From Halococcoides cellulosivorans (GTDB taxonomy: Archaea; Halobacteriota; Halobacteria; Halobacteriales; Haloarculaceae), in the NCBI RefSeq assembly GCF_003058365.1, contig NZ_CP028858.1:2592836-2656835 (forward strand): a stretch of 64,000 nt of DNA, read 5' to 3'. Positions 15,196-50,803 of this stretch are shown here, piece after piece; position 1 is the first letter of the stretch, and each line of letters starts with the position of its first letter. Under the pieces are notes generated by a model. That model saw only the letters and a list, made by a program, of their open reading frames with translations, made no database searches and was not told the DNA's origin. A program made the translations under genes and the position numbers.

Positions 15196-15268
15196 CGTCT
15201 GAGTGGCAGTCGACTCGACTCCACCAGAATCTGGATAGAATCAAGTGACAGCCGTAGAATTACCGTCC

Positions 15269-32535: not shown

Positions 32536-34755
32536 GTGGTCTTCACGATCGATTTCCTCGACGACGGTGCGCCGCTGGTGTGGTCCCTCGAAGGGACCAG
32601 CGAGACCCCCGGTTGGTCGGCGACGCGGGCGGCTGACTACACGCCGACGCTGTTCGCCGTCGCTGCGCGGGGGATGCAGGAGGCCGACCCCGACCGGCAG
32701 GCCTGCGTCGACGAGCTCGACGAGATGCGCGCTGACCTCGAGATGCATCCCGCCGTCGGGGACCTCTCGGTCGCGTGGAAGCGCCCGGGGTTCCGCTTCG
32801 CCGATCAGCCCGTCCTCCGGATCGATGTCGATCGGACGTCGTCGGTCCGAGAGATCGCACGGTTCGTCGAAAATCGAGGCCCGCCGGGGCGAGTCCCGTT
32901 CCGGGCGTTCAACGTCGACTTCTCCCCGGAGTTCCGGTACTGCCTCGAAACGGGGACCGATCCGGCGCCGTCGCGACGGCCGCAACGACTCCGGCTGGAT
33001 CTCCCCCGGACGGCTGCGGCGGACGGGGACCTCACCGCCCTCGAGGTCAGCGTCGTCGACGGCGATGGCGACGGTTGGGGCGAGATCGACGCGACCGACA
33101 CCGTTGGCGTCCTGGAAGAGCTCGAACGCCGCCTACGCGTGGTTGATCCGGACATCCTCTCGGTCGAGCGGAGTGCGATCGTCCCGATGGTCGCCGACGC
33201 CGCCGACGAGTACGGCATCGATCTCGGCCTTCCGCGTGTACCCGCCGGCGTCTCCGACGCACAGGTCCCGGACTACCAACAACTCGCCGGCGAGTCCACG
33301 TTCGAGTCCTACGGCCGGCGACTGCACTCGCCGGCGCGATACAACGTCCCCGGCCGGGTCGTGATCGACCGGTCGAACACGTTCTTCCTCGAAGAGACCA
33401 ACCTCGCCGGCGCGCTCGATCTCGTCGAACGCTCGGGGAAGCCACTCCAGGAACTCGCGTGGGCGTCGATCGGGAACGTCCTCACGGCGATCCAGATCCG
33501 CGAGGCGACCCGTCGCGACGTGCTCGTCCAGTGGCGTGCGTGGCGGCCAGAGCGGTTCAAGACTGCCGGGACCCTCCACGACGCCGACCGGGGCGGGACG
33601 ACGCTCTCGCCGGTCGTGGGCGTCCACGACGACGTCCACGAACTCGACTTCGCGTCGATGTATCCGAACATCATCTGCCAGCACAACCTCTCGCCCGAGA
33701 CTGTCCGGTGTCGGTGCCACGATCGTGATGACGTCCCCGACCTGGACTACGCGGTCTGCGATCGCGACGGCTACCTGCCCGACGTGCTCCAGCCGATCAT
33801 CGACGATCGGGCTGGGATCAAAGACCGACTGGCGAGTGAGGACCTCGACGCCGAGGAGCGCCGCGCCCTCGAGGGCCAGTCGGACGCGCTGAAGTGGATC
33901 CTCGTCTCGTGTTTCGGCTACCAGGGGTTCAGCAACGCGAAGTTCGGTCGGATCGAAGTTCACGAGGCGATCAACGCCTATGCACGGGACATCCTCCTGA
34001 CCGCGAAAGAGCGACTCGAGGCCGGCGGCTGGACGGTGTTGCACGGTATCGTCGATTCGATCTGGGTGACCGCTCGCGACGGCGCCGACCAGCGCCCACT
34101 CGATGAGCTCGCGACAGAGATCAGCGAGGCGGTCGGCATCGCCCTCGAGTACGAGAGCGCGTTCGACTGGGTAGGGTTTTGCCCACGTCGCGACGGGCGC
34201 GGCGGGGCGTTGACGCGCTACTTCGGGCGGCGTCGCGACGCCGACGACGATCCGTACAAGCTCCGGGGGATCGAGTGTCGGCAGCGATCGACGCCGGCGT
34301 GGATCGCCGAGGTCCAACGGGAGTTGATCGATGTCTTCGACGAGACGCGGAACCCCGAGGCCGTGGTCGCCACCCTGGAAGATCGTCTCGCCGTCCTGGA
34401 GGCCGGCGACGTCGACGCGACGGACCTGCTCGTCCGGACCCGGGCGTCGAAGTCCCTCGAGGCGTACTCCCAGCGAACGCGGACGGTCGCTGCGCTCGAA
34501 CGGGCGGAGCAGCTGGGCCTCGAGTTCGCCCCGGGCGAGGACATCGTCTTCATGGTCCAAGACGACGAGAAGGACAGCGTCGATCGAGTGCGACTCGCGC
34601 CAGAAGTGGACGACAAGACGGCATACGATCCGGACTACTATCGGTCGGAAGCGGTGAGGGCTGCGGCGAGCGTACTCGGACCGACTGGGTGGGGCGAGGA
34701 CCGCCTCCTCGACGAACTTCTCGGGCAGCGATCCGCAGCAGTCGGAGAGTATTGA
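32536..34755 (+). CDS. Family-B DNA polymerase (plasmid/PolB2-like)
   Basis: 739 residues from GTG 32536, near the lower end of the family. Polymerase motif A is HELDFASMYPNIICQHNL, motif B KWILVSCFGYQGFSNAKFG, motif C LHGIVDSIWV, where the second Asp of YGDTDS is kept as VDS. The N-terminal region should carry the 3'-5' exonuclease fold, but Exo motifs are not clear, so proofreading may be missing. A divergent motif C and no clear Exo sites suggest a specialised or translesion role. It is the third gene of the RadA-like/small protein/PolB unit. Confidence 0.85.
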   Translation: MVFTIDFLDDGAPLVWSLEGTSETPGWSATRAADYTPTLFAVAARGMQEADPDRQACVDELDEMRADLEMHPAVGDLSVAWKRPGFRFADQPVLRIDVDRTSSVREIARFVENRGPPGRVPFRAFNVDFSPEFRYCLETGTDPAPSRRPQRLRLDLPRTAAADGDLTALEVSVVDGDGDGWGEIDATDTVGVLEELERRLRVVDPDILSVERSAIVPMVADAADEYGIDLGLPRVPAGVSDAQVPDYQQLAGESTFESYGRRLHSPARYNVPGRVVIDRSNTFFLEETNLAGALDLVERSGKPLQELAWASIGNVLTAIQIREATRRDVLVQWRAWRPERFKTAGTLHDADRGGTTLSPVVGVHDDVHELDFASMYPNIICQHNLSPETVRCRCHDRDDVPDLDYAVCDRDGYLPDVLQPIIDDRAGIKDRLASEDLDAEERRALEGQSDALKWILVSCFGYQGFSNAKFGRIEVHEAINAYARDILLTAKERLEAGGWTVLHGIVDSIWVTARDGADQRPLDELATEISEAVGIALEYESAFDWVGFCPRRDGRGGALTRYFGRRRDADDDPYKLRGIECRQRSTPAWIAEVQRELIDVFDETRNPEAVVATLEDRLAVLEAGDVDATDLLVRTRASKSLEAYSQRTRTVAALERAEQLGLEFAPGEDIVFMVQDDEKDSVDRVRLAPEVDDKTAYDPDYYRSEAVRAAASVLGPTGWGEDRLLDELLGQRSAAVGEY

Positions 34756-36760: not shown

Positions 36761-37042
36761 TTATCTCAAAGATGATGCGTATTGGTCTTCCCACTCGCGC
36801 CGGGCCTCAATCTCTCGCTCACCGCGCTTCGTAATGGAATAGTAGTTTGTTCGTCGATCCTTCGCACCCTTCTCCACCAACCCTTTTTCAACGATGCTGT
36901 CCAGATTGGGATAGAGGCGGCCGTGGTGGATCTCATTCTCGTAATATTCCTCAAGCTTGTCCTTGATTTTGAGGCCCTTGGGCTCGTCGAGCCCGGCGAT
37001 TACGTACAAGAGGTCGCGCTGGAATCCCGTGATGTCGTACAT
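36761..37042 (-). CDS. PadR-family wHTH regulator
   Basis: 93 residues (MYDITGFQRDLLYVIAGLDEP, LKIKDKLEEYYENEIHHGRLYPNLDSIVEKGLVEKG in parts). This is the haloarchaeal PadR form: helix-turn-helix, the HHGRLYPNLD core and a wing with an NYYSIT strand. The C-terminal part of the 918-aa protein at 56033 is a clear relative. Probably a repressor acting on a nearby promoter. Confidence 0.85.
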   Translation of the reverse strand: MYDITGFQRDLLYVIAGLDEPKGLKIKDKLEEYYENEIHHGRLYPNLDSIVEKGLVEKGAKDRRTNYYSITKRGEREIEARREWEDQYASSLR

Positions 37043-37148
37043 TATCTAACGGTGGTAGTATAGGGGTTAAAATATTTTGGCTTCGGCCGACGGCTGGTTT
37101 CATATACTGTTAGAACTGAGAAGACGATGACAGTGAGCGATCATATTA

Positions 37149-37430
37149 TTATATCAAACCCCGATCGACTATCTCGATCGCGACCTCATCCTCGGGCGAT
37201 ACAACCGCTCCCGTGACCGTCTCCACCGTCACTGCGACTGTGATCTCCGTCGCCGAAAGCCCAGGGTCGAGACTGCGAAGTTCATCGATCGAAACGTCGA
37301 CGATGCCGTCGACTCGAGAGAGCCGCCGCTCCGCCTCACTTACGAGGTCGCCGTCCGATCCGTCGGGGATCCGGATTTCGACGACCAGTTCGTTCGTCTG
37401 TCGAGTCTCGTTGTCACTGGATATTGCCAT
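37149..37430 (-). CDS. Small acidic protein downstream of Ro60
   Basis: 93 residues. The start at 37430 (MAISSDNETRQTNELVVEI) is supported by a strong GGAGGTG Shine-Dalgarno six bases upstream. Beta-alpha-beta pattern (LVVEIRIPDG, EAERRLSRVDGIVDVSIDELRSLDP, ITVAVTVE) of a small compact domain; no family recognised. It is the last gene of the Ro60 strand and may belong to the same unit. Confidence 0.65.
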   Translation of the reverse strand: MAISSDNETRQTNELVVEIRIPDGSDGDLVSEAERRLSRVDGIVDVSIDELRSLDPGLSATEITVAVTVETVTGAVVSPEDEVAIEIVDRGLI

Positions 37431-37487
37431 TGGATTCACCTCCGTTGGAGCGGCGTCGGCACGATCGCGCACGACAGCGGCCCCAAC

Positions 37488-37559
37488 TGCGCGAGGAGAG
37501 ATTCGAACTCTCGGCTCGGCCCGCTATGCCGCGTGGTGGCCAGGCTCCACTACTCGCGC
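37488..37559 (-). tRNA. tRNA-like gene, apparent anticodon AGC
   Basis: Acceptor stem GCGCGAG/CTCGCGC with discriminator A, D-arm GTGG/CCAC and T-arm GAGAG-TTCGAAT-CTCTC are good. The anticodon stem is CGGC/GCCG with a loop ATAGCGG giving AGC (Ala). A34 is unusual for archaea, so it may be a degenerate or regulatory tRNA mimic. It lies between Ro60 and the 93-aa gene. Confidence 0.6.
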
Positions 37560-37578
37560 GATAGAAACGAAAAATCGC

Positions 37579-39108
37579 TTAGACCGGTTCGAACGCCTCG
37601 ATCTCGTCGATTACCTGGAGAGGGTCCTCGGCGTGCTCGATGAACTCGAGGACGTTCTCGGACCACCCCGAGACGTTGTAGACCCCCTCGTAGCCCTCTG
37701 GAGTGACGAGGTCGCCGTACGACGCCAGGTCGATCATGTAGAGGGAGACATCGGGGGCGATGGTATCGCGATAGGCCTCGAAGGCCTCCCGGACCGTCCG
37801 GGCGTCGTCGGGAACTCTCCAGCGCGAATCCCAGATCTGCATGTCAGTGAACAGCACGACGCGATCGACGGCGATCGCCTCTTCGCGGAGGTACTCCAGG
37901 ACCTTCCAGCCATTAGTCGAGTTACCGACTTCGCGGTCGATGCCGAGGAGTGCGTCCTGTCGCTGGAGCACCGGCGTGTCGACGTGAGTCGATACGTCCT
38001 GAAAGTCGTCGCCAAAGCCACCGACGCGAGCGCCCTGGTCGGCCAATACCGCGCCGAACAACGCGCCGATCTCTTTGTACCGGATCGCACTCTGCTCGGA
38101 GAGGACCGTATCCATCGACCCCGAGAGGTCGACACCGACGAACGTGTCACCCAGGCCCTCGGGAACGCTCTCGACGGAGACGTCGACGGCCCACTCGAGC
38201 CAGCGCTCGACTGCGGGTGCGTCGATCCCGGCGTCCTGCAACGCTTTGTACGCCTGGTAGTACCGGAACGGGTAGAGCGGCGCGTGGCGCACCGCCTCGA
38301 GATCGAGGTACTCGACGATGGTCGCCTCCTCGACGCCAGCCTCGAGCATGTTCCGGAGGTTCCGGATCGATGCGAAGATCGGCAGCGAGTATGCGTCGTC
38401 TTCGATCAGCGTCTCCCACGCGTCTCGCGTGTTCCCGCGCTCGGAGATCACCGTCTCCCAGGTCTTGGGCGTGGGCAGTGGCTCGACGTCGGGATAGTCG
38501 TCCAGATCCCCGCGCATGAATCGCTCGAAGAGGACCTCCTGGTCGTCGTCGACGGGCGTCGGGTGGACGCGGTTGAACACGTCCCGGAGCGTCACTTCGC
38601 GTCGCGAGAGCTCGTACTTCTCGAGCGTGTACGCGTCGGCCATGTCGACGAGCGCGTCTTCGATCCCACGTCGGAGCGGCCAGGGTGCCGTCCCGCCGAA
38701 CAGATCGTCGTGGATCGCCAGCGCCGTCGCCGTCTCGTCCATCCGCTGGATGATCTGGGGCGCCCACTCGCGGATCAGCGACTCGTCGGTGTCGTCTTTA
38801 AACCGGTCGTCGTTGGCCGCGAGGACGAGCAGGACCTGGGGAACGTCCCGCAGATACAGCTCCTGCCGAGCATACGCGGCGAGCTTCAGGACGAACTCTG
38901 GATCCTCGTCCGCCGCCGCGTCGAAGCGCTGGACGATGGCCGCGAGGTGCTCCTCGTCGTCCTCGTAGTAGGAGTCCTCGAGCAGCTGGTTGATCGTGCG
39001 CTTGTACAGGGCGAGTCGTGGGTCGGCGGGGTCGAACGCTTCCCCACCTTCGTTGTTGGTGGTCCGCGTCGCCTCCGCGACCGTCTGTGTGGTGTCGTTG
39101 AACTGCAT
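37579..39108 (-). CDS. rsr: Ro60/TROVE protein with VWA domain
   Basis: 509 residues from ATG 39108 (MQFNDTTQTV). The HEAT-like TROVE region (about 30-340: LALYKRTINQLLEDSYYED, FVLKLAAYARQELYLRDVPQVLLVLAA) ends in a VWA domain with an intact MIDAS FVGVDLSGSMD near 350 and a later DxxD (LFTDMQIWDS). Ro60 homologues bind Y RNAs and the 3' ends of misfolded RNA and, in bacteria, work with PNPase. Archaeal members are rare. Five Y-like RNAs lie immediately upstream on the same strand, which supports the assignment. Confidence 0.92.
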   Translation of the reverse strand: MQFNDTTQTVAEATRTTNNEGGEAFDPADPRLALYKRTINQLLEDSYYEDDEEHLAAIVQRFDAAADEDPEFVLKLAAYARQELYLRDVPQVLLVLAANDDRFKDDTDESLIREWAPQIIQRMDETATALAIHDDLFGGTAPWPLRRGIEDALVDMADAYTLEKYELSRREVTLRDVFNRVHPTPVDDDQEVLFERFMRGDLDDYPDVEPLPTPKTWETVISERGNTRDAWETLIEDDAYSLPIFASIRNLRNMLEAGVEEATIVEYLDLEAVRHAPLYPFRYYQAYKALQDAGIDAPAVERWLEWAVDVSVESVPEGLGDTFVGVDLSGSMDTVLSEQSAIRYKEIGALFGAVLADQGARVGGFGDDFQDVSTHVDTPVLQRQDALLGIDREVGNSTNGWKVLEYLREEAIAVDRVVLFTDMQIWDSRWRVPDDARTVREAFEAYRDTIAPDVSLYMIDLASYGDLVTPEGYEGVYNVSGWSENVLEFIEHAEDPLQVIDEIEAFEPV

Positions 39109-39171
39109 GCTATCACCGGAGCCGCAATGGGCGACCCCGAACAGTGCCACTCGCGGGGTGCGAGTGGTCCA

Positions 39172-39300
39172 CGTCCCCGGCACGATTCGAACGTGCCACA
39201 CTCGGCTTCGAAGGCCGGTGTCCTCGTGAGGGCCGAAAGCCCGAACGAGGGCTCGTCAGAGCTTGCTCTGACGGTGCTCTCCAGACTGAGCTACGGGGAC
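39172..39300 (-). tRNA. tRNA-Arg(TCG) with 56-nt insertion
   Basis: Acceptor GTCCCCG/CGGGGAC, D-arm GCTC/GAGC, anticodon loop CTTCGAA (TCG, Arg) and T-arm GCACG-TTCGAAT-CGTGC. A 56-nt segment (about 39220-39275) sits between the D-stem and the anticodon stem, flanked by an ACC direct repeat; it folds into two hairpins. Removing it restores a normal cloverleaf with one C-A pair in the anticodon stem. It lies between the Y-like RNAs and Ro60. Confidence 0.75.
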
Positions 39301-39303
39301 AAC

Positions 39304-39434
39304 GGTGGTCGGAAAATCGCAGGAGCGAGGAATAGCGTGTTCCCAGTTACACCAGAGCGGACGGTCCGCACCCCGGATTCGAACCGAGATCTCTCGCTGA
39401 ACAGGCGAAGGAACGCTCCAGCTCGACGACCACC
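39304..39434 (-). ncRNA. Y-like RNA 1 (Ro60-associated)
   Basis: Outer stem GGTGGTCG/CGACCACC, 5' loop TCGAG against 3' loop GCGATTTTC, second stem GGAGCG/CGCTCC, then GTTCC and a T-arm-like hairpin CTCGG-TTCGAAT-CCGGG. Same plan as the four copies that follow; closest to Ro60. Confidence 0.7.
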
Positions 39435-39449
39435 CGACTGATGAGTGTC

Positions 39450-39626
39450 GGCGACCGGAAAATCGCAGGAGCGGTAGGACGGTCGCCAAACCGCGCAGGA
39501 CATATCGTCCCCACTCGAGACCATTGTGATCGGTCATCGCGTGGCTGCCAGTCGTCTGGCAGAGCGCCGGGATTCGAACCCGGATATCGCGTAAGAGCGA
39601 AGGAACACTCCTGCTCGACGGTCGCC
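39450..39626 (-). ncRNA. Y-like RNA 2 (Ro60-associated)
   Basis: Outer stem GGCGACCG/CGGTCGCC with the TCGAG and CGATTTTC internal loop, inner stem CAGGAG/CTCCTG, GTTCCTTC, and a perfect T-arm CCGGG-TTCGAAT-CCCGG. It is the longest copy (177 nt), with an extra internal domain containing a TGCCAGACGACTGGCA hairpin. Confidence 0.7.
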
Positions 39627-39641
39627 GCCAACGAATCGGTA

Positions 39642-39722
39642 GTGGTCGGAAAACCAACGGAGCGGTGCGGGAGTTGAACCCGGTGGTGGCCTGAGGAAGG
39701 AACGCTCCGTTTTGACGACCAC
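39642..39722 (-). ncRNA. Y-like RNA 3 (Ro60-associated)
   Basis: Compact 81-nt copy: outer stem GTGGTCG/CGACCAC, loop TCAAA against TTGGTTTTC, inner stem ACGGAGCG/CGCTCCGT, GTTCCTTC, and T-arm CCGGG-TTCAACT-CCCGC. Confidence 0.68.
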
Positions 39723-39837
39723 GATGAACCTCATTGAAATCGACTTCTGAGAGGCCGCTTTCGATGATCGCGGGGACTCGATTGCTTCTGTGAGGGAATA
39801 CTTCAATGCATTCTGACGGCGATCTGGACGAGAAGCG

Positions 39838-39976
39838 ACGACCGGAACACTGCCGGAGCGGTGCCCATTGTCGGGGAGAGCCCCTTTGTCTGGACGGCAC
39901 AGTAGACCTGCTCGTCTACCGCCGGGATTTGAACCCGGATGAACCATTCGAAGGATCGCTCCGACTCGACGGTCGC
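39838..39976 (-). ncRNA. Y-like RNA 4 (Ro60-associated)
   Basis: Outer stem GCGACCG/CGGTCGT, 5' loop TCGAG, inner stem TCGGAGCG/CGCTCCGG, GATCCTTCG, T-arm CCGGG-TTCAAAT-CCCGG, and an added hairpin region GTAGACGAGCAGGTCTAC. The 3' loop (CAGTGTTC) is less conserved than in the other copies. Confidence 0.62.
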
Positions 39977-39991
39977 CATTAACGGGTGATA

Positions 39992-40075
39992 GGTGGCCGG
40001 AAAACCGACGGAGCGGGTGCGGGAGTCGAACCCGCTGGGTGCCAGATGAAGGAACGCTCCGTCTCGACGGCCACC
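39992..40075 (-). ncRNA. Y-like RNA 5 (Ro60-associated)
   Basis: 84 nt: outer stem GGTGGCCG/CGGCCACC, loop TCGAG against TCGGTTTTC, inner stem ACGGAGCG/CGCTCCGT, GTTCCTTC, and T-arm GCGGG-TTCGACT-CCCGC. It is the cleanest short copy and a good model for the family; the first in the transcription direction. Confidence 0.72.
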
Positions 40076-40128
40076 CCAAGGGCCAGGAACACACCCGGTC
40101 CACGCTGGAAACACCGACAGCAGCCGCG

Positions 40129-41223
40129 TCAGGAGTCGAGAGAATCGAGTTCGTCGTCGATAACCTCGACAGTCTCCCGGAGTTCGAGATACGAGTTTTC
40201 GAAGCTGTCCCCGTCTTCGATCGCCGAGGTCGCGGTGGCGATCGGATCGACGCGGATCTCGGCGTTCGCCGACGGGAATGCGAGTTTCAATCCGTCTCCG
40301 TCGAGATAATTCCACTCGGCCGCAGTATTTCGTCTGATGACTTCGCCGAAGTAGCCGGCAGCCTCACTCGCCGTGGCAGTGAGCACGATAGAAGCTTCAT
40401 CGTCGGTCTCCCCGAGTTCGGCGTCGGCGAACTCCGGCGTCCGATACCGCTCCTCGAACAGGGTATCGACTGTCGCGAGTGACTCCACCGAGAAATCCAG
40501 GTCGTACTCGTCGTGCCGGTCGACGAAATCGTCGGCAAAGCCGTGCATGTCCTCGGGAGCCAGATCCTCGTCCGCTCCGTCTGCGTCGATCTCCGACGGA
40601 TCGATACCGCTGTCCTGCCGACGCTCCTCGAGGCGCTCGCCATCGGGTTCGAGCAGTTCTCCGTCGAGATCGTAGTTCTCGACGAAGGTGTCGTGCATAC
40701 GGACGAACGGTGGCTCGGTGTCGAGGGCGCTGTGGGCCGTCCCGAACAGATTCACGATCGTCTGTCCCTCGAAGCCGATCGCCCAGCCATAGTCGCGGTC
40801 GAGTACCCACTGCGCGTCGTAGTGACGAATCAGAACCTCACCGAAATAACACGCCGGCTGGGCCGCCATCGGTGCGAACCCACCGGTCCGCCCGTCTTCG
40901 AGGTCGATCGCCAGCCAGTTCGCTCGATCTTGCTGGGTCGCGAACATCTCGTCGACCCCACGAATCGATTCGATCGAGTAGTCAGTCGGTCCGAACTCCT
41001 CCCAGGTGCCGGCGTAGTCCTCGGCCATCTCACGAAGGTCGGTGACCGAATCACCGACGAGACAGCCCGGCGGGACGTGATTCTCGTCGCCGAACGCCGA
41101 GCGATCATCGATCACGCGCGTCTCCTCGGCCGCCTGTGTTGACTGGTCCGGGCCTTCGGTCGCGTTCGACTGGTCGTCGTCGTTGCCACCGAACAATCCG
41201 ATAATCGAGTCGAAAAGTCCCAT
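40129..41223 (-). CDS. Two-repeat protein of unknown function in the Ro60 island
   Basis: 364 residues. After an N-terminal MGLFDSIIGLFGGNDDD and a polar linker there are two copies of one domain: residues about 55-190 (LREMAEDYAGTWEEF, ACYFGEVLIRHYDAQW) and about 225-355 (FADDFVDRHDEYDLD, AGYFGEVIRRNTAAEW). Each copy contains YFGEV followed by a Trp-containing strand. No catalytic signature seen. It is on the same strand as RlaP and Ro60, 135 bp after RlaP, so it may be part of the RNA-repair unit. Confidence 0.7.
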   Translation of the reverse strand: MGLFDSIIGLFGGNDDDQSNATEGPDQSTQAAEETRVIDDRSAFGDENHVPPGCLVGDSVTDLREMAEDYAGTWEEFGPTDYSIESIRGVDEMFATQQDRANWLAIDLEDGRTGGFAPMAAQPACYFGEVLIRHYDAQWVLDRDYGWAIGFEGQTIVNLFGTAHSALDTEPPFVRMHDTFVENYDLDGELLEPDGERLEERRQDSGIDPSEIDADGADEDLAPEDMHGFADDFVDRHDEYDLDFSVESLATVDTLFEERYRTPEFADAELGETDDEASIVLTATASEAAGYFGEVIRRNTAAEWNYLDGDGLKLAFPSANAEIRVDPIATATSAIEDGDSFENSYLELRETVEVIDDELDSLDS

Positions 41224-41358
41224 GGGTGTCGATATCGACCATTACGATCATAGTCGTTTCGAGAATGGGATCGAGAACGGCGCACTCAATCGATCGACCC
41301 ATGAATCAACACCCCACGATCGTTCAATGATCAGATTCTCTCACCGAGAGCGACCGAC

Positions 41359-42180
41359 CTATGCCCGAACTTTCCGCATCCAGTCGTCGATGGCGTCTCG
41401 ATACCCGCTCTTGTCGGGGTCGGGCAGGTCATCGAGCGCGTTGAACTGTGTGGCGATCGCCTCACGAGCGCGCCCCTCCAGATCGTCCGGAACGGTCGGG
41501 TCCGCGGACGCTCGCTTGTGTTCGACCAGCCGATCGACCAGATCGGGATCGCCACCGTCGACGGTCGTCGCCAGCCGATGGATGTCGGCCTCGATGTCCT
41601 CGTGATCGAGGACGTACTGGGCCGCGAGGAGGCCACGATAGACGTAGAGGAACTTCTTCGGCCGCGGGTCGTAGCCCTCGCTCTTCTCGGGGTCGAGGTG
41701 TTTGTAGTAGTTCGATTTCGCCATGCCCAGGTAGGCGTGAGGGACGTTCATCGGGAGGAACTCTCGGAGGAGTTCCTGGAGCGCGTCCATCTCGAGGGGC
41801 ATGCCATTCATCACCGTCGGGGCCTCGAAGACCAGCTCGAGAACGTTGTAGTTCGCCTTCGCGAGCAACGTGCCGAACTGCTTGAGTTCGTAGCTCCGCA
41901 GGTCGACCTCGCTATACTCCTCGAACCCCTAGGTCGTCCCGTCCATGTTGACGGTGACCTCGCTCGCAGGGGTGTCGAGGTAGGCGTACTCCTCGGGCGG
42001 GACGACGTGGAGGCCCCTGACGTCGATATCGCTGTCTTCGCTGTCGAACCCGTAGATATGACTTCCCGTGACCGCGTAGAAGCGAGGGCAGTGTTCGGTC
42101 CCCTTCTGCGCGACGGCGTCTTCGATGAACTCGCGTAGTTTCTCGTCACTATACGCCAGATTCAGGTCGGATATCGTCAT
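41359..42180 (-). CDS. RlaP-like nucleotidyltransferase (RNA repair), interrupted by in-frame TAG
   Basis: From ATG 42180 (MTISDLNLAYSDEKLREFI, with a GAGG Shine-Dalgarno) the frame has a polymerase-beta nucleotidyltransferase core: FYAVTGSHIYGFDSEDSDIDVRG (GS...DxDxRG). It continues after TAG at 41929-41931 in the same frame (GFEEYSEVDLRSYELKQFGTLLAKANYNVLEL) to a natural end at 41359. Without the TAG it is 273 residues, the usual RlaP/COG3541 length. RlaP proteins are predicted RNA end-healing enzymes found with RNA ligases and Ro60. Either a recent nonsense mutation or read-through; the flanking frame shows no other damage. Confidence 0.78.
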
Positions 42181-42286
42181 CTGTGATTCCTCGAATTGTG
42201 TCGTCATTGCACCGTTCGGATCGGCCATCCAGCGCCAGGGGATGGAGTGTCCGTTCGATATTCACCGACGGTGAGGCGATTCATAA

Positions 42287-42362
42287 TGCTCCCGAAGGGA
42301 ATCGAACCCTCGACCTCTGCCTTGAAAGGGCAGCGTCCCTCGCCAACGGAGACTCCAGGAGC
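42287..42362 (-). tRNA. tRNA-Glu(TTC)
   Basis: Acceptor GCTCCTG/CGGGAGC, discriminator A, anticodon stem CTGCC/GGCAG with loop CTTTCAA (TTC), and T-arm GAGGG-TTCGATT-CCCTT. The D-arm GTCTC/GAGGGAC is atypical for haloarchaeal Glu and is shared with tRNA-Gln at 44939. Confidence 0.82.
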
Positions 42363-42366
42363 ACAG

Positions 42367-42440
42367 AGTCGCGGGTCGGATTCGAACCGACGATACTCCA
42401 CTCTGCAGGCGGACGCGTTCGACCACTCTGCCACCGCGAC
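42367..42440 (-). tRNA. tRNA-Cys(GCA)
   Basis: Acceptor GTCGCGG/CCGCGAC, discriminator T (typical of Cys), anticodon loop CTGCAGA (GCA), and T-arm GTCGG-TTCGAAT-CCGAC. A complete cloverleaf without insertion. Confidence 0.85.
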
Positions 42441-42445
42441 CTGAT

Positions 42446-42519
42446 GGACACCCCCGGGATTCGAACCCGGAGCTTCTCCCGTGCCACGGGAGCACTCTGC
42501 CAGATTGAGCTAGGGGCCC
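42446..42519 (-). tRNA. tRNA-Ala(GGC), mismatched acceptor
   Basis: D-arm, anticodon stem CTCCC/GGGAG with loop GTGGCAC (GGC) and T-arm CCGGG-TTCGAAT-CCCGG are normal, but the acceptor strands GGGCCCC and GGGTGTC do not pair at positions 3 and 4. The Ala(TGC) gene at 43231 has the same defect. Confidence 0.7.
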
Positions 42520-42527
42520 CGCGAAAA

Positions 42528-42601
42528 CGCCGGGACGAGGACTCGAACCTCGCACAGCTCGGGTAACAGCCGAGCTCCCGCACCAGGCGGGACTTCCCGG
42601 C
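42528..42601 (-). tRNA. tRNA-Asn(GTT)
   Basis: Acceptor GCCGGGA/TCCCGGC, discriminator G, extended D-stem TCCCGC/GCGGGA, anticodon loop CTGTTAC (GTT), and T-arm CGAGG-TTCGAGT-CCTCG. Confidence 0.83.
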
Positions 42602-42604
42602 AGA

Positions 42605-42679
42605 AGGGCCGGGCGGGGCTCGAACCCGCGTCGAACAGTCGATTAAAAGTCGACCACTTAGCCGCTAAGTTACCGGCCC
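42605..42679 (-). tRNA. tRNA-Lys(TTT)
   Basis: Acceptor GGGCCGG/CCGGCCC, D-arm ACTTA/TAAGT, anticodon stem GTCGA/TCGAC with loop CTTTTAA (TTT), T-arm GCGGG-TTCGAGC-CCCGC, and discriminator T. Confidence 0.84.
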
Positions 42680-42683
42680 GGAG

Positions 42684-42756
42684 TGCTCCAGCCCGGATTT
42701 GAACCGGGGGCCCGGCCTCGAGAGGGCCGTGAGTTTGGCCACTACTCCACTGGAGC
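42684..42756 (-). tRNA. tRNA-Glu(CTC)
   Basis: Acceptor GCTCCAG/CTGGAGC, discriminator A, anticodon stem CGGCC/GGCCG with loop CTCTCGA (CTC), and T-arm CCCGG-TTCAAAT-CCGGG. A perfect cloverleaf. Confidence 0.87.
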
Positions 42757-42814
42757 AAAGATGAATGCCCAATGAGGGCACCACATGCCAGCCGACGCAC
42801 GCGCGTGCGTCGAG

Positions 42815-42940
42815 TCTCCCCGACACGACTGAGCGAAGCCGACAGCTTCGCGAGGGTCGGAAGACGCGAGCGTCTTCCGGAATTCGAACGTGCGTCTCCT
42901 CCTCTACAGGGAGACGTCGTCGCCGCTTGACCACGGGGAG
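42815..42940 (-). tRNA. tRNA-Tyr(GTA) with 54-nt T-arm insertion
   Basis: Acceptor CTCCCCG/CGGGGAG with discriminator A, anticodon loop CTGTAGA (GTA), and T-stem GCACG/CGTGT. A 54-nt segment (42828-42881) sits exactly between the T-loop TTCGAAT and the 3' T-stem strand. It holds two hairpins: GGAAGACG/CGTCTTCC and GCGAAGC/GCTTCGC. Excision would give a normal tRNA. Confidence 0.78.
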
Positions 42941-42983
42941 ATGGGCCGATGCGTCAACTCCCCACCGGCGACCGGGGGAAACC

Positions 42984-43108
42984 GTGGGAGCGGGAGTGTT
43001 TGGCCGGCAGATTGCTCTGCCGGCTTACACCGAGGCATTTCACCCTCGGAACAGCGGGCTCTCGCCCGTCGGCCCGTGTGGATTGGTGGAACGAAGTATC
43101 GCTCCCAC
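42984..43108. ncRNA. Structured element closed by a 9-bp stem, three hairpins
   Basis: GTGGGAGCG (42984-42992) pairs with CGCTCCCAC (43100-43108). Inside are three hairpins: GCCGGCAG/CTGCCGGC, CCGAGG/CCTCGG and CGGGC/GCCCG. It is cloverleaf-sized but has no T-arm or anticodon arm. It could be a non-coding RNA of the array; the strand is unknown. Confidence 0.5.
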
Positions 43109-43148
43109 TCGACCCAGTTCGTCTGTGAAGAGTTTGATCGGCGGGGAT

Positions 43149-43226
43149 GCACCGACCGATGTCAGCCGTCTCCGGTCCTGACGCCAGATTGGCGGCTGGT
43201 TGTGACTCCAGCGCATCGGTCGGTGC
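43149..43226. ncRNA. Structured element closed by a 13-bp perfect stem
   Basis: GCACCGACCGATG (43149-43161) is exactly complementary to 43214-43226, enclosing 52 nt with smaller hairpins (GTCAG/CTGAC, GCC/GGC). Possibly a processed RNA or a decayed tRNA-like gene. Confidence 0.5.
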
Positions 43227-43230
43227 GAGT

Positions 43231-43304
43231 GGACGCCCCCGGGAGTCGAACCCGGAGCCTCTCGCTTGCAAAGCGAGCGCTCTGCCAGATTGAGCTAAGG
43301 GCCA
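43231..43304 (-). tRNA. tRNA-Ala(TGC), mismatched acceptor
   Basis: D-arm identical to Ala(GGC), anticodon stem CTCGC/GCGAG with loop TTTGCAA (TGC), and T-arm CCGGG-TTCGACT-CCCGG. The acceptor strands TGGCCCT and GGGCGTC pair poorly beyond the three inner pairs, although GTGG and CCAC lie on the outer ends and could pair with a bulge. Confidence 0.7.
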
Positions 43305-43307
43305 CAA

Positions 43308-43382
43308 TCGCGGGACCACGATTCGAACGTGGGTCTGCTGGATGTGAGCCAGCCGGGATCGGCCAGACTACCCAATCCCGCG
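43308..43382 (-). tRNA. tRNA-Val(CAC)
   Basis: Acceptor CGCGGGA/TCCCGCG, discriminator A, D-arm GGGT/ATCC, anticodon stem GCTGG/CCAGC with loop CTCACAT (CAC), and T-arm CCACG-TTCGAAT-CGTGG. Confidence 0.83.
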
Positions 43383-43386
43383 AGAG

Positions 43387-43469
43387 TGTCGCCGCCAGGA
43401 TTCGAACCTGGGTAGGACCTTCGCCAGCGGTCCTGAGCCGCTTCCCGTTGACCGCTTGGGTACGGCGAC
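43387..43469 (-). tRNA. tRNA-Leu(CAG)
   Basis: Class II tRNA: acceptor GTCGCCG/CGGCGAC, anticodon loop CTCAGGA (CAG), long variable arm, T-arm CCAGG-TTCGAAT-CCTGG, and discriminator A. Confidence 0.87.
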
Positions 43470-43500
43470 AAGCGCAAAATCATTCGCCAGCAGCGCGCTG

Positions 43501-43618
43501 GCATGCCACCGGAAGACTCGATCGCTCACGGCAGAGCCGTTCGCTCGTGTCGTGGTCCTCACATTCGTTCGAACCACGCAGCGCTCGTCTTCCGAGGCGT
43601 GCCTCGCTTTCGCTCGGC
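43501..43618. repeat. Palindrome-rich spacer between tRNA genes
   Basis: GCATGCC at both ends and GGAAGAC (near 43511) opposite GTCTTCC (near 43587) frame a T-arm-like GGTTCGAACGAATG stretch on the minus strand. It contains no tRNA. It is made of the same GGAAGAC/GTCTTCC palindrome that occurs inside the tRNA insertions. Confidence 0.55.
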
Positions 43619-43619
43619 A

Positions 43620-43701
43620 TGCCGCCACCAGGATTCGAACCTGGGAAGGACTCACCACACGGCCCTCAACCGTGTCCCTTTGGCCACTCGGGCATGGCGG
43701 C
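43620..43701 (-). tRNA. tRNA-Leu(GAG)
   Basis: Acceptor GCCGCCA/TGGCGGC, anticodon stem ACGG/CCGT with loop TTGAGGG (GAG), long variable arm, T-arm CCAGG-TTCGAAT-CCTGG, and discriminator A. Confidence 0.85.
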
Positions 43702-43704
43702 GCA

Positions 43705-43786
43705 TTCCGCGGGGAGGATTCGAACCTCCGAAGGTCTATCCGGCGGGTCTTAAGCCCGCTGCCGTCGACCACTTGGCTACCGCGGA
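43705..43786 (-). tRNA. tRNA-Leu(TAA)
   Basis: Acceptor TCCGCGG/CCGCGGA, anticodon stem GCGGG/CCCGC with loop CTTAAGA (TAA), long variable arm, and T-arm GGAGG-TTCGAAT-CCTCC. It abuts the next gene without a gap. Confidence 0.86.
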
Positions 43787-43917
43787 TGAGCACGGGCTGA
43801 ATCGAACCAGAGGAAGACTCGCTCCGCTCGTCTTCCAGGGCTCGAAAACCGCCGGACGGTTTTCGAACAGCCGTCTCCCGCCTGAAGGCGGGCGTCTTGC
43901 CATTGGACCACGTACCC
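43787..43917 (-). tRNA. tRNA with apparent TCA anticodon and T-loop insertion
   Basis: Acceptor GGGTACG/CGTGCTC, D-arm GTC/GAC in a Gly/Pro-like GGTCCAATGGCAAGAC, and T-stem GGCTG/CAGCC. The anticodon arm CCCGC-CTTCAG-GCGGG has a six-base loop reading TCA (UGA codon). The T-loop contains about 61 extra nt with two hairpins (CGAAAACCG/CGGTTTTCG and GGAAGAC/GTCTTCC) and a duplicated TTCGA. Suppressor function is possible but unproven. Confidence 0.6.
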
Positions 43918-43926
43918 AGCTGAGAA

Positions 43927-44012
43927 CGCCGAGGGAGTGATTCGAACACTCGTGGCCTCGCAGCCGTCGCCTCTCGAGGGCGATCCCTTGACCAGGCTCG
44001 GGGAACCTCGGC
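43927..44012 (-). tRNA. tRNA-Ser(CGA)
   Basis: Acceptor GCCGAGG/CCTCGGC, discriminator G, anticodon stem TCGCC/GGCGA with loop CTCGAGA (CGA), long variable arm, and T-arm GAGTG-TTCGAAT-CACTC. Confidence 0.86.
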
Positions 44013-44018
44013 AGATCA

Positions 44019-44104
44019 CGGCGGGAGGGCGATTTGAACGCCCGTGTCCTCGTGGACACCGTGGTTCCAGCACGGTCCCTTGGCCAGGCTAGGGAAATCC
44101 CGCC
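44019..44104 (-). tRNA. tRNA-Ser(GGA)
   Basis: Acceptor GGCGGGA/TCCCGCC, discriminator G, anticodon stem CCGTG/CACGG with loop CTGGAAC (GGA), variable arm GTCC/GGAC, and T-arm GGGCG-TTCAAAT-CGCCC. Confidence 0.87.
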
Positions 44105-44107
44105 GAA

Positions 44108-44239
44108 CGGTGAGACGGAGAGTCGAACGCCGCGAATCAGAGATTCGCAAGCCCGCGGCTCCGATCGGAGCCGCGGACTCCGAAGCCTAGCGGCTCTCGA
44201 TTTCAAATCGAGTGCAGTCACCTGTCTGCCTGTCTCACC
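44108..44239 (-). tRNA. tRNA-Ser(TGA) with 50-nt T-arm insertion
   Basis: Acceptor GGTGAGA/TCTCACC, discriminator G, D-stem GCAG/CTGC, anticodon stem CTCGA/TCGAG with loop TTTGAAA (TGA), and T-stem CGGAG/CTCCG. A 50-nt segment (44128-44177) separates the 5' T-stem strand from the T-loop. It folds into a 12-bp perfect hairpin around GGCTCCGATCGGAGCC and a GCGAATC/GATTCGC hairpin. Confidence 0.76.
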
Positions 44240-44357
44240 ACACCGGAAGACTCACTCCGCTCGCGGGTCGTTCCTCCCCGCTCGCAATCGAGGGCTTCCT
44301 CCGGTCGCCCTCGCATCGTTCGTCTTCCGAGCCCCGCTTCGCTTTCGCTCAGCGGGA

Positions 44358-44444
44358 CGCCACGACTCGGATTCGAACCGAGAGACCGGCACTCACCGGC
44401 CACGGCGTAGCAGGCCGTTGGGTTCACCGGTACCCAGTCGCGGC
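44358..44444 (-). tRNA. tRNA-Ser(GCT)
   Basis: Acceptor GCCGCGA/TCGTGGC, discriminator G, anticodon stem ACGGC/GCCGT with loop CTGCTAC (GCT), variable arm GCCGG/CCGGT, and T-arm CTCGG-TTCGAAT-CCGAG. The 44243-44357 spacer before it carries the GGAAGAC/GTCTTCC palindrome but no tRNA. Confidence 0.86.
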
Positions 44445-44449
44445 ACAAT

Positions 44450-44575
44450 TGGGTCGATGAGGGTCCCGTGAGCAAAGCGAACGGGACGCCGAAAGAGCGC
44501 CGCGCTCTTTCGGAAATTCGAACCTCGGTCTCGTGCACCCAAGGCACGGATCTTCGACCACGAGACCATCGACCC
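44450..44575 (-). tRNA. tRNA-Pro(TGG) with 53-nt T-arm insertion
   Basis: Acceptor GGGTCGA/TCGACCC, anticodon stem CGTGC/GCACG with loop CTTGGGT (TGG), and T-stem CGAGG/CCTCA. A 53-nt segment (44463-44515) follows the T-loop TTCGAAT, as in tRNA-Tyr, with hairpins CCGAAAGAGCGC/GCGCTCTTTCGG and GTCCCGT/ACGGGAC. Confidence 0.76.
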
Positions 44576-44854
44576 AAAGGATGGTTGTATGTCTATACGT
44601 CTGCGCACGCGACGGGGACGGAACGACTGTTCGCTACCGTCTCCCGTCGCGTTGGGGCGTGCTTCGACCGTCGGAGCGGTCGGGAATGCCGCATCGGTCC
44701 ATGCAGGTTGCAGACCCTTCCGGGCCCAGCCCGCCGGTCTGAACGTACCGGCGAGAGTGCCTGCCTCGATGGGCATCCCCAGCGTGGATTGACCACGCAG
44801 CCACGCCGTCAGAGACCAGCTCTGACGAGCCCAGCCTCGATCGGCTCGGCTGGA
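44576..44854. other. Array spacer with hairpins, no tRNA found
   Basis: Several short hairpins are visible (GCGACGGG/CCCGTCGC near 44609-44650, CCGCCGGT/ACCGGCG near 44731-44752, CGTGG/CCACG near 44785). No anticodon arm plus T-arm combination was found. Confidence 0.45.
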
Positions 44855-44928
44855 CGCCGACGCCGGGATTCGAACCCAGGTCACGACCGTGACAGGGTCG
44901 CATGCTAGCCGGACTACACCACGTCGGC
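44855..44928 (-). tRNA. tRNA-Asp(GTC)
   Basis: Acceptor GCCGACG/CGTCGGC, discriminator G, anticodon stem CGACC/GGTCG with loop CTGTCAC (GTC), and T-arm CTGGG-TTCGAAT-CCCGG. Confidence 0.86.
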
Positions 44929-44938
44929 TCGCCACGGA

Positions 44939-45185
44939 TCGCCCCGAGGGGTCCCGTCGCGTTCACGCGACGGGGCTCGCGGGAGCGACGCTCCCGCGGC
45001 GAATCGAACCAGAGCCAGACGGTCTCGACCGTCTGGCAGGGATCAGATTCGCGGAGCGAATCTGAACCCCCGACCTCGGGATCCAAAGTCCCGCGTCCCT
45101 CGCCGGAAGACTCGCTTCGCTCGACTTCCGAGCCCTCGTTCGGACCTCCGGCCCTCACGAGGACGCCAACGGAGACTCCGGGGCT
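44939..45185 (-). tRNA. tRNA-Gln(TTG) with D-loop and T-loop insertions
   Basis: Acceptor AGCCCCG against CGGGGC plus a mismatched last base, anticodon stem CGGGA/TCCCG with loop CTTTGGA (TTG). A 63-nt insertion (45105-45167) sits in the D-loop with a GCC direct repeat. A second, longer one (about 44952-45066) fills the T-loop with four hairpins, including GCCAGACGGTC/GACCGTCTGGC. At 247 bp it is the most expanded tRNA gene of the array. Confidence 0.65.
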
Positions 45186-45962
45186 ACGGATCCGCGGCTG
45201 ATCGTGGATGGAGTGCTTACCAGTCGCTCCAGAGACGCTCAGCGCGTCGGGAACGACGCGTTCGCACCGCTCACAGGTGCGAACGGAACCAGTGTGCCGC
45301 GAACGTCACCACAAGTCGACGGCCAGTCTGTTGGACTGACCCAACGCTGGGCGACGAGTTGCGGCAGGCCCGTGTTCCCCGGCCCCGAACGGGTAGTCCG
45401 TGTGGGGGCCAGGTTATGCGGGGATGGTGATCCGGACGGAGCCGGAATCGCTGGCGTCGATCGATTCGACGCGACTGGGATTCCGACCTGATTCGTCCGG
45501 TTCCGCACGCTGATCGCGTAGGCAAAATTGCACACCCACGGCTCCGGTCGGGCGAACGGGCCGTGGAGTGGGTTTTGCGATCGTCATGCGGAATCACCGT
45601 CGGTTGACGTTGGGTGAGTGCTTCAATTACAACTCATTGACGCGGGGGTATTAATTCTAACTGGGGTGTGATATGCAAAGGCACAGGGCTGGTGGACTGG
45701 ACCGAATTCGGCCTACAGGGTTGTGCTGAATCCTTAGTTCCAGCCAAGACGGGCCGCGAATGGTCACGCTGATTCCCTCGGTTCCGTATCTCCAGACGGT
45801 TACTCTTCCGCCGGTATCCAGTCCAGAAACAGATCTCGAAGACTTTGAGAGACGGTACGGAGGTCAGAGAGAGTTTGCTCTTCGTTCTTCTTCGTAGCCA
45901 AGTACTCCTCGACGAGAGTATCATTGATTCCTTCGAGAAAGTCGAGTAAGACGTCGTAGCCG
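45186..45962. other. Region after the tRNA array; possible small gene
   Basis: No tRNA or long gene is seen. A minus-strand frame 45800-46009 ends in LLDFLEGINDTLVEEYLATKKNEEQTLSDL...LDWIPAEE, which looks protein-like and overlaps the 3' end of the PIN gene by 47 bp. It could be a small gene, a frame-shifted old tail of the PIN gene, or chance. Confidence 0.35.
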
Positions 45963-46349
45963 TTACCCGTCGGCCCCCGGTTCCAGCGGCAAACGCTCGG
46001 GATCGACATCCTCGTACGCTTTGTCGGAGCTAAGGATGGAATGTCCGCGGGTTTCGGCAGTCGCAGCGTGGAAGGCATCAAATGCGGTCATCCCGTCCTC
46101 GAAGTAATTCACCGCTTTGAGTACGATCTGGCGTTCTTCCTCGGTCTCGACGGGGACAACATCGAGCATATTCGAGACCAACTTGGTGAAATCGAACTCG
46201 TGACGCCCACTGATGAGCAATAGCTCCAGATACGAATACGTGGATGTGACGACGTCATGTTCTTCCAGCTGTGCTTCTGCCTGGTCTTTCAGCCAGTCGG
46301 AGTCTTTGACGAGAGCGAGGAGAAAATCTGTCTCGACGAATCGCGTCAT
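45963..46349 (-). CDS. VapC-like PIN-domain toxin
   Basis: 128 residues: MTRFVETDFLLALVKDSDW (first strand, where Glu-Thr-Asp carries the first acidic residue), STYSYLELLL (second acidic residue) and GMTAFDAFHAATAETRGHSILSSDKAYEDV with the later Asp residues. PIN toxins are RNases cutting tRNA or rRNA. It overlaps the AbrB-like gene by 4 bp. A tRNA- or rRNA-cutting toxin close to a spare-tRNA array and Ro60 is worth noting. Confidence 0.82.
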   Translation of the reverse strand: MTRFVETDFLLALVKDSDWLKDQAEAQLEEHDVVTSTYSYLELLLISGRHEFDFTKLVSNMLDVVPVETEEERQIVLKAVNYFEDGMTAFDAFHAATAETRGHSILSSDKAYEDVDPERLPLEPGADG

Positions 46350-48588: not shown

Positions 48589-49287
48589 CTACTCGTCAAC
48601 GTACTCCGGTCGCTGCTCGTATTCGATCGGATCGTTCACGTCGATCCGTTGGAACGCTTGTAATCTGAATGCACACGCATCGCAGGTGCCACACGCAGGT
48701 GATGACTCGCGATAGCAACTCCACGTGAGTTCGTAGGGAACATCCATTTCCACCCCTCGTTCGGCGATATCGGTTTTTGACCACTCCACAAAGGGCGCGA
48801 TGAGTTCGATCTCGGTTTCCGGCTTCGTCCCCGTATCGATCACAGATTGGAAGGCGTCGAAAAACGCTGGCCGACAGTCCGGGTATCCAGAAAAATCCTC
48901 ACTATGCGCGCCAATAAACACCGCTGAGCAGTCATTGGCTTCTGCGTACGACGTAGCCATCGCGAGCAGGTTCGCGTTCCGGAACGGAACGTACGAAGTC
49001 GGGATTTCGTCACTCTCTAAGTCTGCATCCTCGACATCAATCGAATCGTCCGTGAGACTCGACGTCCCGATAGTGGCGAGGTATTCAGTTTCAATGTGCA
49101 AGAAATCCGCCGCGTCAACTTCTTCGGCCAGCACTTTCGCACACTCACGTTCTGTGGACTCCGTCTGTTGACCGTAGGAAGTGTGGAAAAGATATGGTTC
49201 GTATCCACGGTCCATCGCTTCGTAGACTGCAGTTGCACTGTCCATTCCACCGGAGACAAGAATTACGGCGCGTTTTGAATCAATCAT
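48589..49287 (-). CDS. queC: 7-cyano-7-deazaguanine (preQ0) synthase QueC
   Basis: 232 residues. ATP-pyrophosphatase PP-loop VILVSGGMDSATAVYEA at the start, and a C-terminal zinc site (CYRESSPACGTCDACAFR). QueC turns 7-carboxy-7-deazaguanine into preQ0, the base used by DpdA for DNA and by archaeal TGT for tRNA. Third in a run with queD and queE. Ends with TAG. Confidence 0.93.
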   Translation of the reverse strand: MIDSKRAVILVSGGMDSATAVYEAMDRGYEPYLFHTSYGQQTESTERECAKVLAEEVDAADFLHIETEYLATIGTSSLTDDSIDVEDADLESDEIPTSYVPFRNANLLAMATSYAEANDCSAVFIGAHSEDFSGYPDCRPAFFDAFQSVIDTGTKPETEIELIAPFVEWSKTDIAERGVEMDVPYELTWSCYRESSPACGTCDACAFRLQAFQRIDVNDPIEYEQRPEYVDE

Positions 49288-49372
49288 CTGTGTGGGGAGA
49301 GTTGTTTTCGGTCCTGTACCGTGACTGCGCTCTGAATCACGTATTGCTCACCGCTCAATCGAGATTTCTCAA

Positions 49373-50149: not shown

Positions 50150-50151
50150 TG

Positions 50152-50604: not shown

Positions 50605-50803
50605 AAGAACGATAATATCGGGGTATTACTTAGATATGATGGTCGCATACCGCGTCGACCACCGCCGGCAGATATAACGCGAATATATTACGTCAGAACG
50701 TCGGGGGAAATGACCATACACGAACACAATAAAATCGTCCTCTACTGGAGTAGAGTGAGAAGAACCGTTACAATTGAAAGGAGTTGCTACCATAGGCTAC
50801 CCA

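Follow-up and report, generated by a model that had tools for sequence, protein, structure and literature searches.

In a 64,000-nucleotide window of the Halococcoides cellulosivorans genome (bases 2592836-2656835 of a 2.72-Mb single-contig haloarchaeal genome; coordinates below are window positions), a Ro60 gene, a group of Y-like RNAs, a gene of the RlaP nucleotidyltransferase family and about 22 tRNA genes form an island, all on the minus strand (Table 1). As judged by comparison with related loci, the same-strand tRNAs, the Y-like RNAs and Ro60 are inherited together. The anatomy of this island is firm. With regard to function we infer a mobile operon that would combine a Ro60-Y RNA particle with a spare set of tRNAs and act under translational stress or infection, a proposal to which we give about an even chance of being correct.

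The linkage of tRNAs to TROVE genes in haloarchaea is already known. A tRNA cluster at 2632007-2637763 of this genome (HArcel1, CP028858.1), which coincides with the present array, has been published, a TROVE gene was present in 20 of 29 archaeal tRNA clusters, and plasmid links, pseudogenes in almost all clusters and introns in some were reported (PMC6333295, Morgado and Vicente 2019). The accessible part of that report does not mention Y RNAs, a structured RNA between tRNA-Asp and tRNA-Pro, RlaP or discriminator conservation. New here are a covarying family of Y-like RNAs, the structured RNA between Asp and Pro (R2) and the conservation of discriminator bases in the array tRNAs. Among the matches listed in the open-access literature, none named archaeal Y RNAs.

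Ro60 and the Y-like RNAs

Ro60 proteins consist of a TROVE domain and a Ro60-type vWA domain that carries a MIDAS motif. In the window protein the TROVE match is above the Pfam cut-off, the vWA_Ro60 match (E 2.3e-5) lies under it, and the MIDAS motif is intact (DLSGS); the DxSxS signature was present in 45 of 45 Ro60 sequences compared, one distant viral protein included. Relatives were found at 39 loci among genome contigs (75-88% identity), in 13 plasmid records (60-80%) and in the Halogranum tailed virus HGTV-1 (45% identity to the window Ro60), and the carriers of the cassette comprise haloarchaeal chromosomes, plasmids and contigs, Haloarcula amylolytica and Halorubrum ezzemoulense being culturable examples. 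The 39 genome-contig loci, the window, HGTV-1 and three plasmid regions made up a comparison set of 44 loci, which are partly dependent: L019 and L044 overlap on one contig, and one plasmid contributes two copies, L034 and L045.

Thirty-nine loci had at least 7 kb upstream of Ro60, and at 36 of these at least five same-strand tRNAs were found (median 14, maximum 27), the exceptions being L019, L040 and HGTV-1. No opposite-strand tRNA was detected at these 39 loci from 7.5 kb upstream to 0.3 kb downstream of Ro60. Array order and anticodons were largely alike across most loci. Of the 44, 35 have a Gly(gcc) gene under 120 nt downstream of Ro60, and 31 have an Arg(tcg) gene under 400 nt upstream of it. 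The Ro60 reading frame was free of stop codons in the matched range at 43 of the 44 loci; L019 has two stops.

Y RNAs are characterized by a long end-to-end helix with a conserved internal loop or bulge, and those of the bacterial type also possess a tRNA-like module. In the plan common to the five units at 40075-39304, 8 bp lead into a 4/7 internal loop, beyond which 9 bp enclose a variable inner part. The first stretch is 7 bp in unit 3, and units 2 and 5 are slightly off. The loop is asymmetric, mostly TCGA opposite a 7-nt U-rich strand. Searching for the helix by structure alone was unspecific, with 26 matches on each window strand, and was abandoned; the loop signature and controls were required. 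The resulting descriptor, applied to the 1000 nt upstream of Ro60, identified 130 units at 42 of the 44 loci. The controls yielded 3 units when each locus was dinucleotide-shuffled once, 1 when the reverse strand was searched and 6 when the downstream sequence was. The TCGA loop occurred in 103 of the 130, a frequency that is partly selection since the descriptor score rewards the loop motif. A T-arm-like module was present in 92 of the 130 (0.5 in shuffles), with at least one at each of the 42 loci.

When 18 short and diverse members were aligned, both sides had changed in 12 of 17 pairs, above every slid version of the alignment, and 97.7% of paired cells could pair, compared with 78.0% in shuffles and at most 60.3% in slid versions. 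These alignments indicate that the Y-like RNAs contain one base-paired helix with an internal loop that is kept by compensatory changes. As in Y RNAs, the gene adjoins Ro60 and the end-to-end helix is long with a conserved internal loop, and the Y-like RNAs are probably made to bind Ro60. Neither the Y RNA models nor any other Rfam family matched them at gathering score in the window, L029, L044 or L046, and we therefore name these RNAs Y-like and treat them as a separate family. Unit 1 overlaps a sub-threshold Rfam tRNA-Sec match (24.5 bits, cut-off 47).

A covariance model of the family, R1, was built from 18 training RNAs of 13 loci; its E-values are rough. At E<=1e-5 it matched 43 of 391 genomes of the class, and TROVE was likewise matched in 43 of 391, with 42 genomes shared. 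In all 42 the best R1 match was on the same contig and strand as a TROVE match and at most 1.8 kb away from it. This genome-wide comparison left one genome with Ro60 only (G233) and one with the RNA only (G236). A local R1 search in G233 gave a match of 36.5 bits just upstream of Ro60. Divergent Ro60 genes (51-53% identity; G021, G328 and G233) had a Y-like RNA just upstream in three of three cases, as did the G182 Ro60 (71% identity). The first three genomes are outside the R1 training set, and the contigs of all four are absent from the 39 genome-contig loci. The weak sixth unit within the tRNA array of the window also has counterparts, similar matches being found in L010 and L139.

The sequence-only reading had placed Ro60, RlaP, Y-like RNAs and a tRNA array on one strand, and this arrangement is borne out by Pfam, ARAGORN, the folds and R1, and by the 130 descriptor units against 3 in shuffles.

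The tRNA array and the R2 RNA

ARAGORN identified 16 minus-strand tRNAs, 15 of them within the array proper. Interrupted Gln, Pro, Ser(TGA), Trp, Tyr and Arg genes were added by eye against relatives to give a total of about 22, in line with the previously claimed 'about 20'. Read 5' to 3' along the minus strand, the island comprises interrupted Gln, Asp, R2, interrupted Pro, Ser, interrupted Ser, Ser, Ser, degenerate Trp, three Leu, Val, Ala and the weak sixth Y-like RNA, followed by interrupted Tyr, Glu, Lys, Asn, Ala, Cys, Glu, RlaP, a 364-residue protein, the five Y-like RNAs, interrupted Arg, Ro60, a degenerate tRNA and a small protein. Among the 45 stretches compared, the 364-residue protein was matched in none but the window.

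The 15 clean array tRNAs are 64-82% identical to chromosomal isoacceptors with the same anticodon; the chromosomal tRNAs found numbered 42, in 40 stretches taken, with no Trp among them. The discriminator base was that of the host isotype in 500 of 533 array tRNAs, compared with a mean of 234 and a maximum of 460 when isotype labels were permuted. This count leaves out L009 and HGTV-1 as well as six Trp and one SeC-read tRNA that have no host isotype, and takes the window genome alone as host reference. Pairing of the acceptor stem reached 96-100% in most isotypes (Gln 86%, Ala mostly 80-86%), and as many as 11 different stems occurred. The array tRNAs, Ala and Lys excepted, display the paired acceptor and T stems and the isotype discriminator of functional tRNAs. 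At position 8995 of L013, ARAGORN reads the anticodon TCA where relatives carry Glu(ctc), which could be an opal-reading tRNA or a mutation.

Several tRNA bodies contain GC-rich hairpin inserts, some of them flanked by short direct repeats, and L010 Gln has an insert similar to those of the window. These inserts may be introns, mobile hairpins or damage; a bulge-helix-bulge splicing motif was not evident at the one junction inspected, by hand only. A GGAAGAC...GTCTTCC hairpin was considered as a genome-wide repeat and rejected, since with up to 3 mismatches it occurred in five places only, two in the array and two near one chromosomal tRNA.

R2 has a core of about 130 nt (200 model positions) and was found at 37 loci in 34 distinct sequences. 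In 21 sequences, 9 of 29 pairs were changed on both sides, and 98.0% of paired cells could pair, compared with 91.3% in shuffles and at most 50.5% in slid versions; the number of pair types was not extreme, being reached by 38 of 500 shuffles. No Rfam model matched at R2 (E up to 5, within 37000-45700). Strong R2 matches (E<=1e-10) were present in 44 of the 391 genomes, 39 of them TROVE-positive. R2 was missing from 4 of the 43 TROVE genomes (G182, G021, G233 and G328), two of which have weak local matches. Conversely, five genomes had R2 without TROVE (G078, G027, G282, G283 and G254). At least one tRNA adjoined R2 in all five, and the small protein lay within 1.3 kb in four, G282 being cut by a contig end. 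Genome co-occurrence therefore suggests that R1 goes with Ro60, and that R2 is tied less to Ro60 than to the tRNAs and the small protein. The loci in G078, G027, G283 and G254 (L128-L131), which have R2, the small ferredoxin-like protein and between one and four tRNAs and lack Ro60, are a possible minimal module. QueC/E/D-like genes are found near the R2-only locus in G254 (L131).

Accessory genes and surroundings of the island

The small ferredoxin-like protein was matched in 37 of 45 stretches, window included (L019 and L044 overlap and contain the same gene). Pfam gave no match for the window copy, and HMA-like matches reached 0.0011 at best, in 6 of 31 members. A Foldseek search with the model of the L029 relative (pLDDT 73) as query returned no match below E 0.001; the top matches were the archaeal uncharacterised 3bpd and 2x3d, followed by EF-1 beta 2yy3 and MTH889 2raq (TM 0.39-0.50), and assignment as EF-1 beta is a lead only. 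Because the genome-wide search for this protein was broad (221 of 391 genomes at E<=0.001), its co-occurrence was left unused.

In the window genome PF10127 matches RlaP in two pieces of the same frame that cover profile positions 22-248. The frame is interrupted by one TAG and is not open, and RlaP is probably inactive here. Apart from the window, RlaP was found near Ro60 only in L016, L017 and L040, and L046 has a partial piece; counted by genome, 4 of the 43 with Ro60 have the two genes no more than 15 kb apart. Anywhere in the genome, it was present in 13 of 43 genomes with Ro60 and in 1 of 24 without (67 genomes). By this distribution RlaP is an accessory, an optional repair add-on in a few lineages, and not part of the core. 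The sequence-only reading had also described two PIN-type toxin pairs in the window, which was mistaken: a single PIN match was detected (46002-46340; 15 genome-wide), and elsewhere there was a partial match in one other of 45 stretches (L019). RtcB, the only ligase searched, lies far from the island at 1.77 Mb and was present in nine of nine genomes tested; the island thus lacks the RtcB-containing unit of rtcBA-type operons. The proposal that the gene set is one co-conserved unit consequently stands for Ro60, the Y-like RNAs and the tRNA array and fails for RlaP and PIN.

Table 1. Features of the island and associated genes in the window.
Feature	Position	Strand	Basis and remarks
Small ferredoxin-like protein, 93 aa	37149..37430	-	Downstream of Ro60; C-terminus divergent in window copy
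Degenerate tRNA	37488..37559	-	ARAGORN reads Ala(agc); most relatives have Gly(gcc) there
Ro60 (TROVE + vWA), 509 aa	37579..39108	-	Pfam PF05731 TROVE, E 1.8e-20
tRNA-Arg(TCG)	39172..39300	-	Hairpin insert before anticodon stem; by eye
Y-like RNA 5, 131 nt	39304..39434	-	Fold; R1 61.8 bits
Y-like RNA 4, 177 nt	39450..39626	-	Fold; inner part long; R1 in pieces only, 23.8 bits at 39543-39626 and 19.0 bits at 39450-39487
Y-like RNA 3, 83 nt	39641..39723	-	Fold of 39642-39722; R1 76.1 bits (R1 training sequence)
Y-like RNA 2, 143 nt	39835..39977	-	Fold; R1 51.8 bits at 39837-39977
Y-like RNA 1, 84 nt	39992..40075	-	Fold; R1 90.8 bits (R1 training sequence)
RlaP-family nucleotidyltransferase gene	41359..42228	-	PF10127 at 41929-42228 (1.2e-9) and 41359-41868 (1.9e-13); one in-frame TAG
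tRNA array, 15 ARAGORN-clean genes	42286..44928	-	Glu, Cys, Ala, Asn, Lys, Glu, Ala, Val, Leu x3, Ser x3, Asp
tRNA-Tyr(GTA)	42814..42941	-	Hairpin inserts in T arm; by eye; clean Tyr(gta) in many relatives
Weaker sixth Y-like RNA	42971..43118	-	Within tRNA array; R1 32.5 bits, E 1e-5
tRNA-Trp-like, degenerate	43795..43917	-	With inserts; against Trp(cca) of L046; ends approximate
tRNA-Ser(TGA)	44108..44239	-	Double hairpin insert at T stem/loop border; by eye
tRNA-Pro(TGG)	44450..44575	-	Double hairpin insert in T arm; by eye; L011 Pro insert similar
R2 RNA	44596..44792	-	Second structured RNA, between tRNA-Asp and tRNA-Pro; R2 138.4 bits (training sequence)
tRNA-Gln(TTG)	44942..45185	-	Split by hairpin inserts; ends set by hand
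QueC	48589-49287		
QueE	49373-50149		
QueD	50152-50604		
TGT gene	60598-61839		Weak DpdA match; near QueC/E/D

Outside the island, two adjacent integrase-like genes (27377-29400, one of them under the Pfam cut-off) and a B-type DNA polymerase-like gene (32536-34755), which has relatives near Ro60 in 13 other loci, one a short piece, are signs of an integrated plasmid or virus. The region at 48589-61839 looks like a 7-deazaguanine DNA modification (Dpd-type) system and also includes a large helicase, an HNH-repeat protein and an HSP90-like ATPase. A GmrSD-type gene at 18492-20198 has strong matches to the candidate defence families HEC-06 and Orf5, and at 22067-23353 MCM N-terminal/OB domains are fused to an HSDR_N-type nuclease domain.

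Function and alternative explanations

Bacterial rsr-yrlBA-rtcBA operons resemble the island in having a Ro60 homologue with adjoining Y RNAs; they are linked to tRNA damage and react to damaged tRNAs. In contrast to the island, the operons as described in the accessible part of PMC7790460 have no tRNA array, and RtcB is encoded inside them rather than elsewhere in the genome. The trn operon of an Anabaena plasmid is similar in being a redundant, plasmid-borne tRNA array. Translational stress switches on this otherwise silent operon, and the same repressor, TrcR, controls rtcB as well; the operon is bacterial, and PMC10272220 nowhere mentions Ro60.

Viruses provide further comparisons. HGTV-1 has 36 tRNA genes and RtcB according to the accessible part of PMC8651126. 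Like the island it possesses Ro60, and R1 with filters off gave a weak Y-like match (18.5 bits, E 0.01) whose end is 13 nt short of the annotated Ro60 start, although the outer helix is short and the fold z-score only -1.74. Unlike the island it is viral, with one annotated tRNA in 17.5 kb (Asp with an intron, about 2.8 kb upstream), a stretch in which ARAGORN finds no tRNA. Jumbo phages carry tRNAs, RNA ligases and RlaP, with ROT/TROVE in a small subset, as described in the accessible part of PMC7824862. Two Ro60 queries against IMG/VR yielded one relative each, L009 and L140, and a 23-base exact Y pattern yielded no match there. L009, a viral contig of 497 kb and thus jumbo phage-sized, resembles the island in that Ro60 is followed by tRNAs and a tmRNA (10001-16379), but its Ro60 is about 25% identical and R1 gave no match up to E 1 in 21 kb. 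In L140 there was no ARAGORN tRNA and no Y-like match better than E 0.66.

In our proposal the units of the island would be co-transcribed and Ro60 would bind the Y-like RNAs via the conserved helix. By analogy with the trn operon of Anabaena (PMC10272220) and the rsr-rtc operon of bacteria (PMC7790460), as far as the accessible parts of these reports describe them, the array would be a reserve whose expression under translational stress or infection serves to top up or replace damaged tRNAs, and the Ro60 particle may sort or protect tRNAs that are misfolded or damaged. A wider version, which we advance tentatively and consider doubtful, is that haloarchaeal plasmids and viruses carry a back-up kit for translation and RNA quality that would comprise archaeal Y RNAs, a Ro60 particle, divergent tRNAs that can be charged and R2, possibly acting on the array tRNAs.

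Several observations weigh against a stress-induced operon of this kind. Some genomes contribute two loci and the 44-locus set includes near-identical copies, the descriptor had no match at HGTV-1 or L019, and the R1 training RNAs were picked partly by pairing. R1 matches G236 strongly (37.7 bits) although TROVE has no match there, and 14 genomes, G233 included, have weak R1 matches only (E 0.001-0.01), where about 4 would nominally be expected. L040 and G182 (= L136) have Ro60 and Y-like RNAs and no tRNA array in the stretch examined, so the array is not essential to the particle. Among the array tRNAs, Ala has poorly pairing acceptor stems and mostly lacks the host discriminator, and the Lys discriminator is mostly T where the host has G. 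As a rule tRNAs have U at position 8; this base is mostly non-U in Gln, Glu(TTC), Ser(GCT), Ser(TGA), Lys and Asn, and U8 is mostly kept in the other common isotypes. Finally, about 7 of the 22 array genes in the window genome are broken or degenerate, and with pseudogenes in almost all published clusters (accessible part of PMC6333295) this suggests that the window copy may be decaying.

Such decay could be general, with tRNA arrays piling up in plasmids and proviruses without benefit. The broken tRNA genes and interrupted RlaP of the window and the two stops in the L019 Ro60 fit this explanation, yet the compensatory changes in both RNA families, the stop-free Ro60 at 43 of 44 loci and the nearly complete pairing of acceptor stems in most isotypes make it the least probable of those considered. 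It is very unlikely that the array RNAs serve outside translation, mainly as tRNA-like nuclease decoys or as Ro60 clients. The departures from U at position 8 in several isotypes, the D stems that look extended on inspection by eye, the inserts within tRNA genes and the T-arm-like modules of the Y-like RNAs would suit that role, whereas decoys would have less need of the discriminators and anticodons that match the isotype. Alternatively, the tRNAs could help to translate the element's own genes, with Ro60-Y as a passenger or quality-control partner. Conservation of the array anticodons over tens of loci and discriminators that fit the isotypes agree with codon supplementation of this kind, but the chromosome has a same-anticodon isoacceptor for each of the 15 clean array tRNAs, and we regard it as quite improbable.

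The sequence-only reading had instead proposed protection from anticodon nucleases: RlaP and Ro60 would repair RNA, and the array would replace tRNAs destroyed by PIN toxins or defence nucleases in infection. Ro60, RlaP and the tRNAs do share one strand, and the window contains defence-type genes (the GmrSD-type gene and the 7-deazaguanine genes). Phage tRNAs are reported, in the accessible part of PMC10264068, to evade tRNA-targeting defences by anticodon-loop mutations; in the island, 9 of the 15 array tRNAs differ from the host isoacceptor in non-anticodon loop bases, a raw count that does not factor in whole-molecule divergence. However, RlaP adjoins Ro60 in few Ro60 genomes (4 of 43) and is interrupted in the window, and the lone PIN match there is one of 15 genome-wide, with a partial counterpart at a single other locus. 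With RlaP and PIN outside the conserved unit this explanation loses its two special ingredients, and although possible we consider it unlikely.

The recurrence of the cassette in many haloarchaea argues that archaea probably have Ro60-Y RNA particles of their own, tied to a portable tRNA supply. Ro60 and Y RNAs have been studied in animals and bacteria, and a covarying archaeal Y-like family would extend the system to the third domain. The R1 and R2 alignments would allow both RNAs to be annotated by others. The joining of Ro60-Y to a tRNA array constitutes a natural setting for a direct test of the link between Ro60 and tRNA, and offers a testable answer to the question of why mobile elements carry redundant tRNA arrays.

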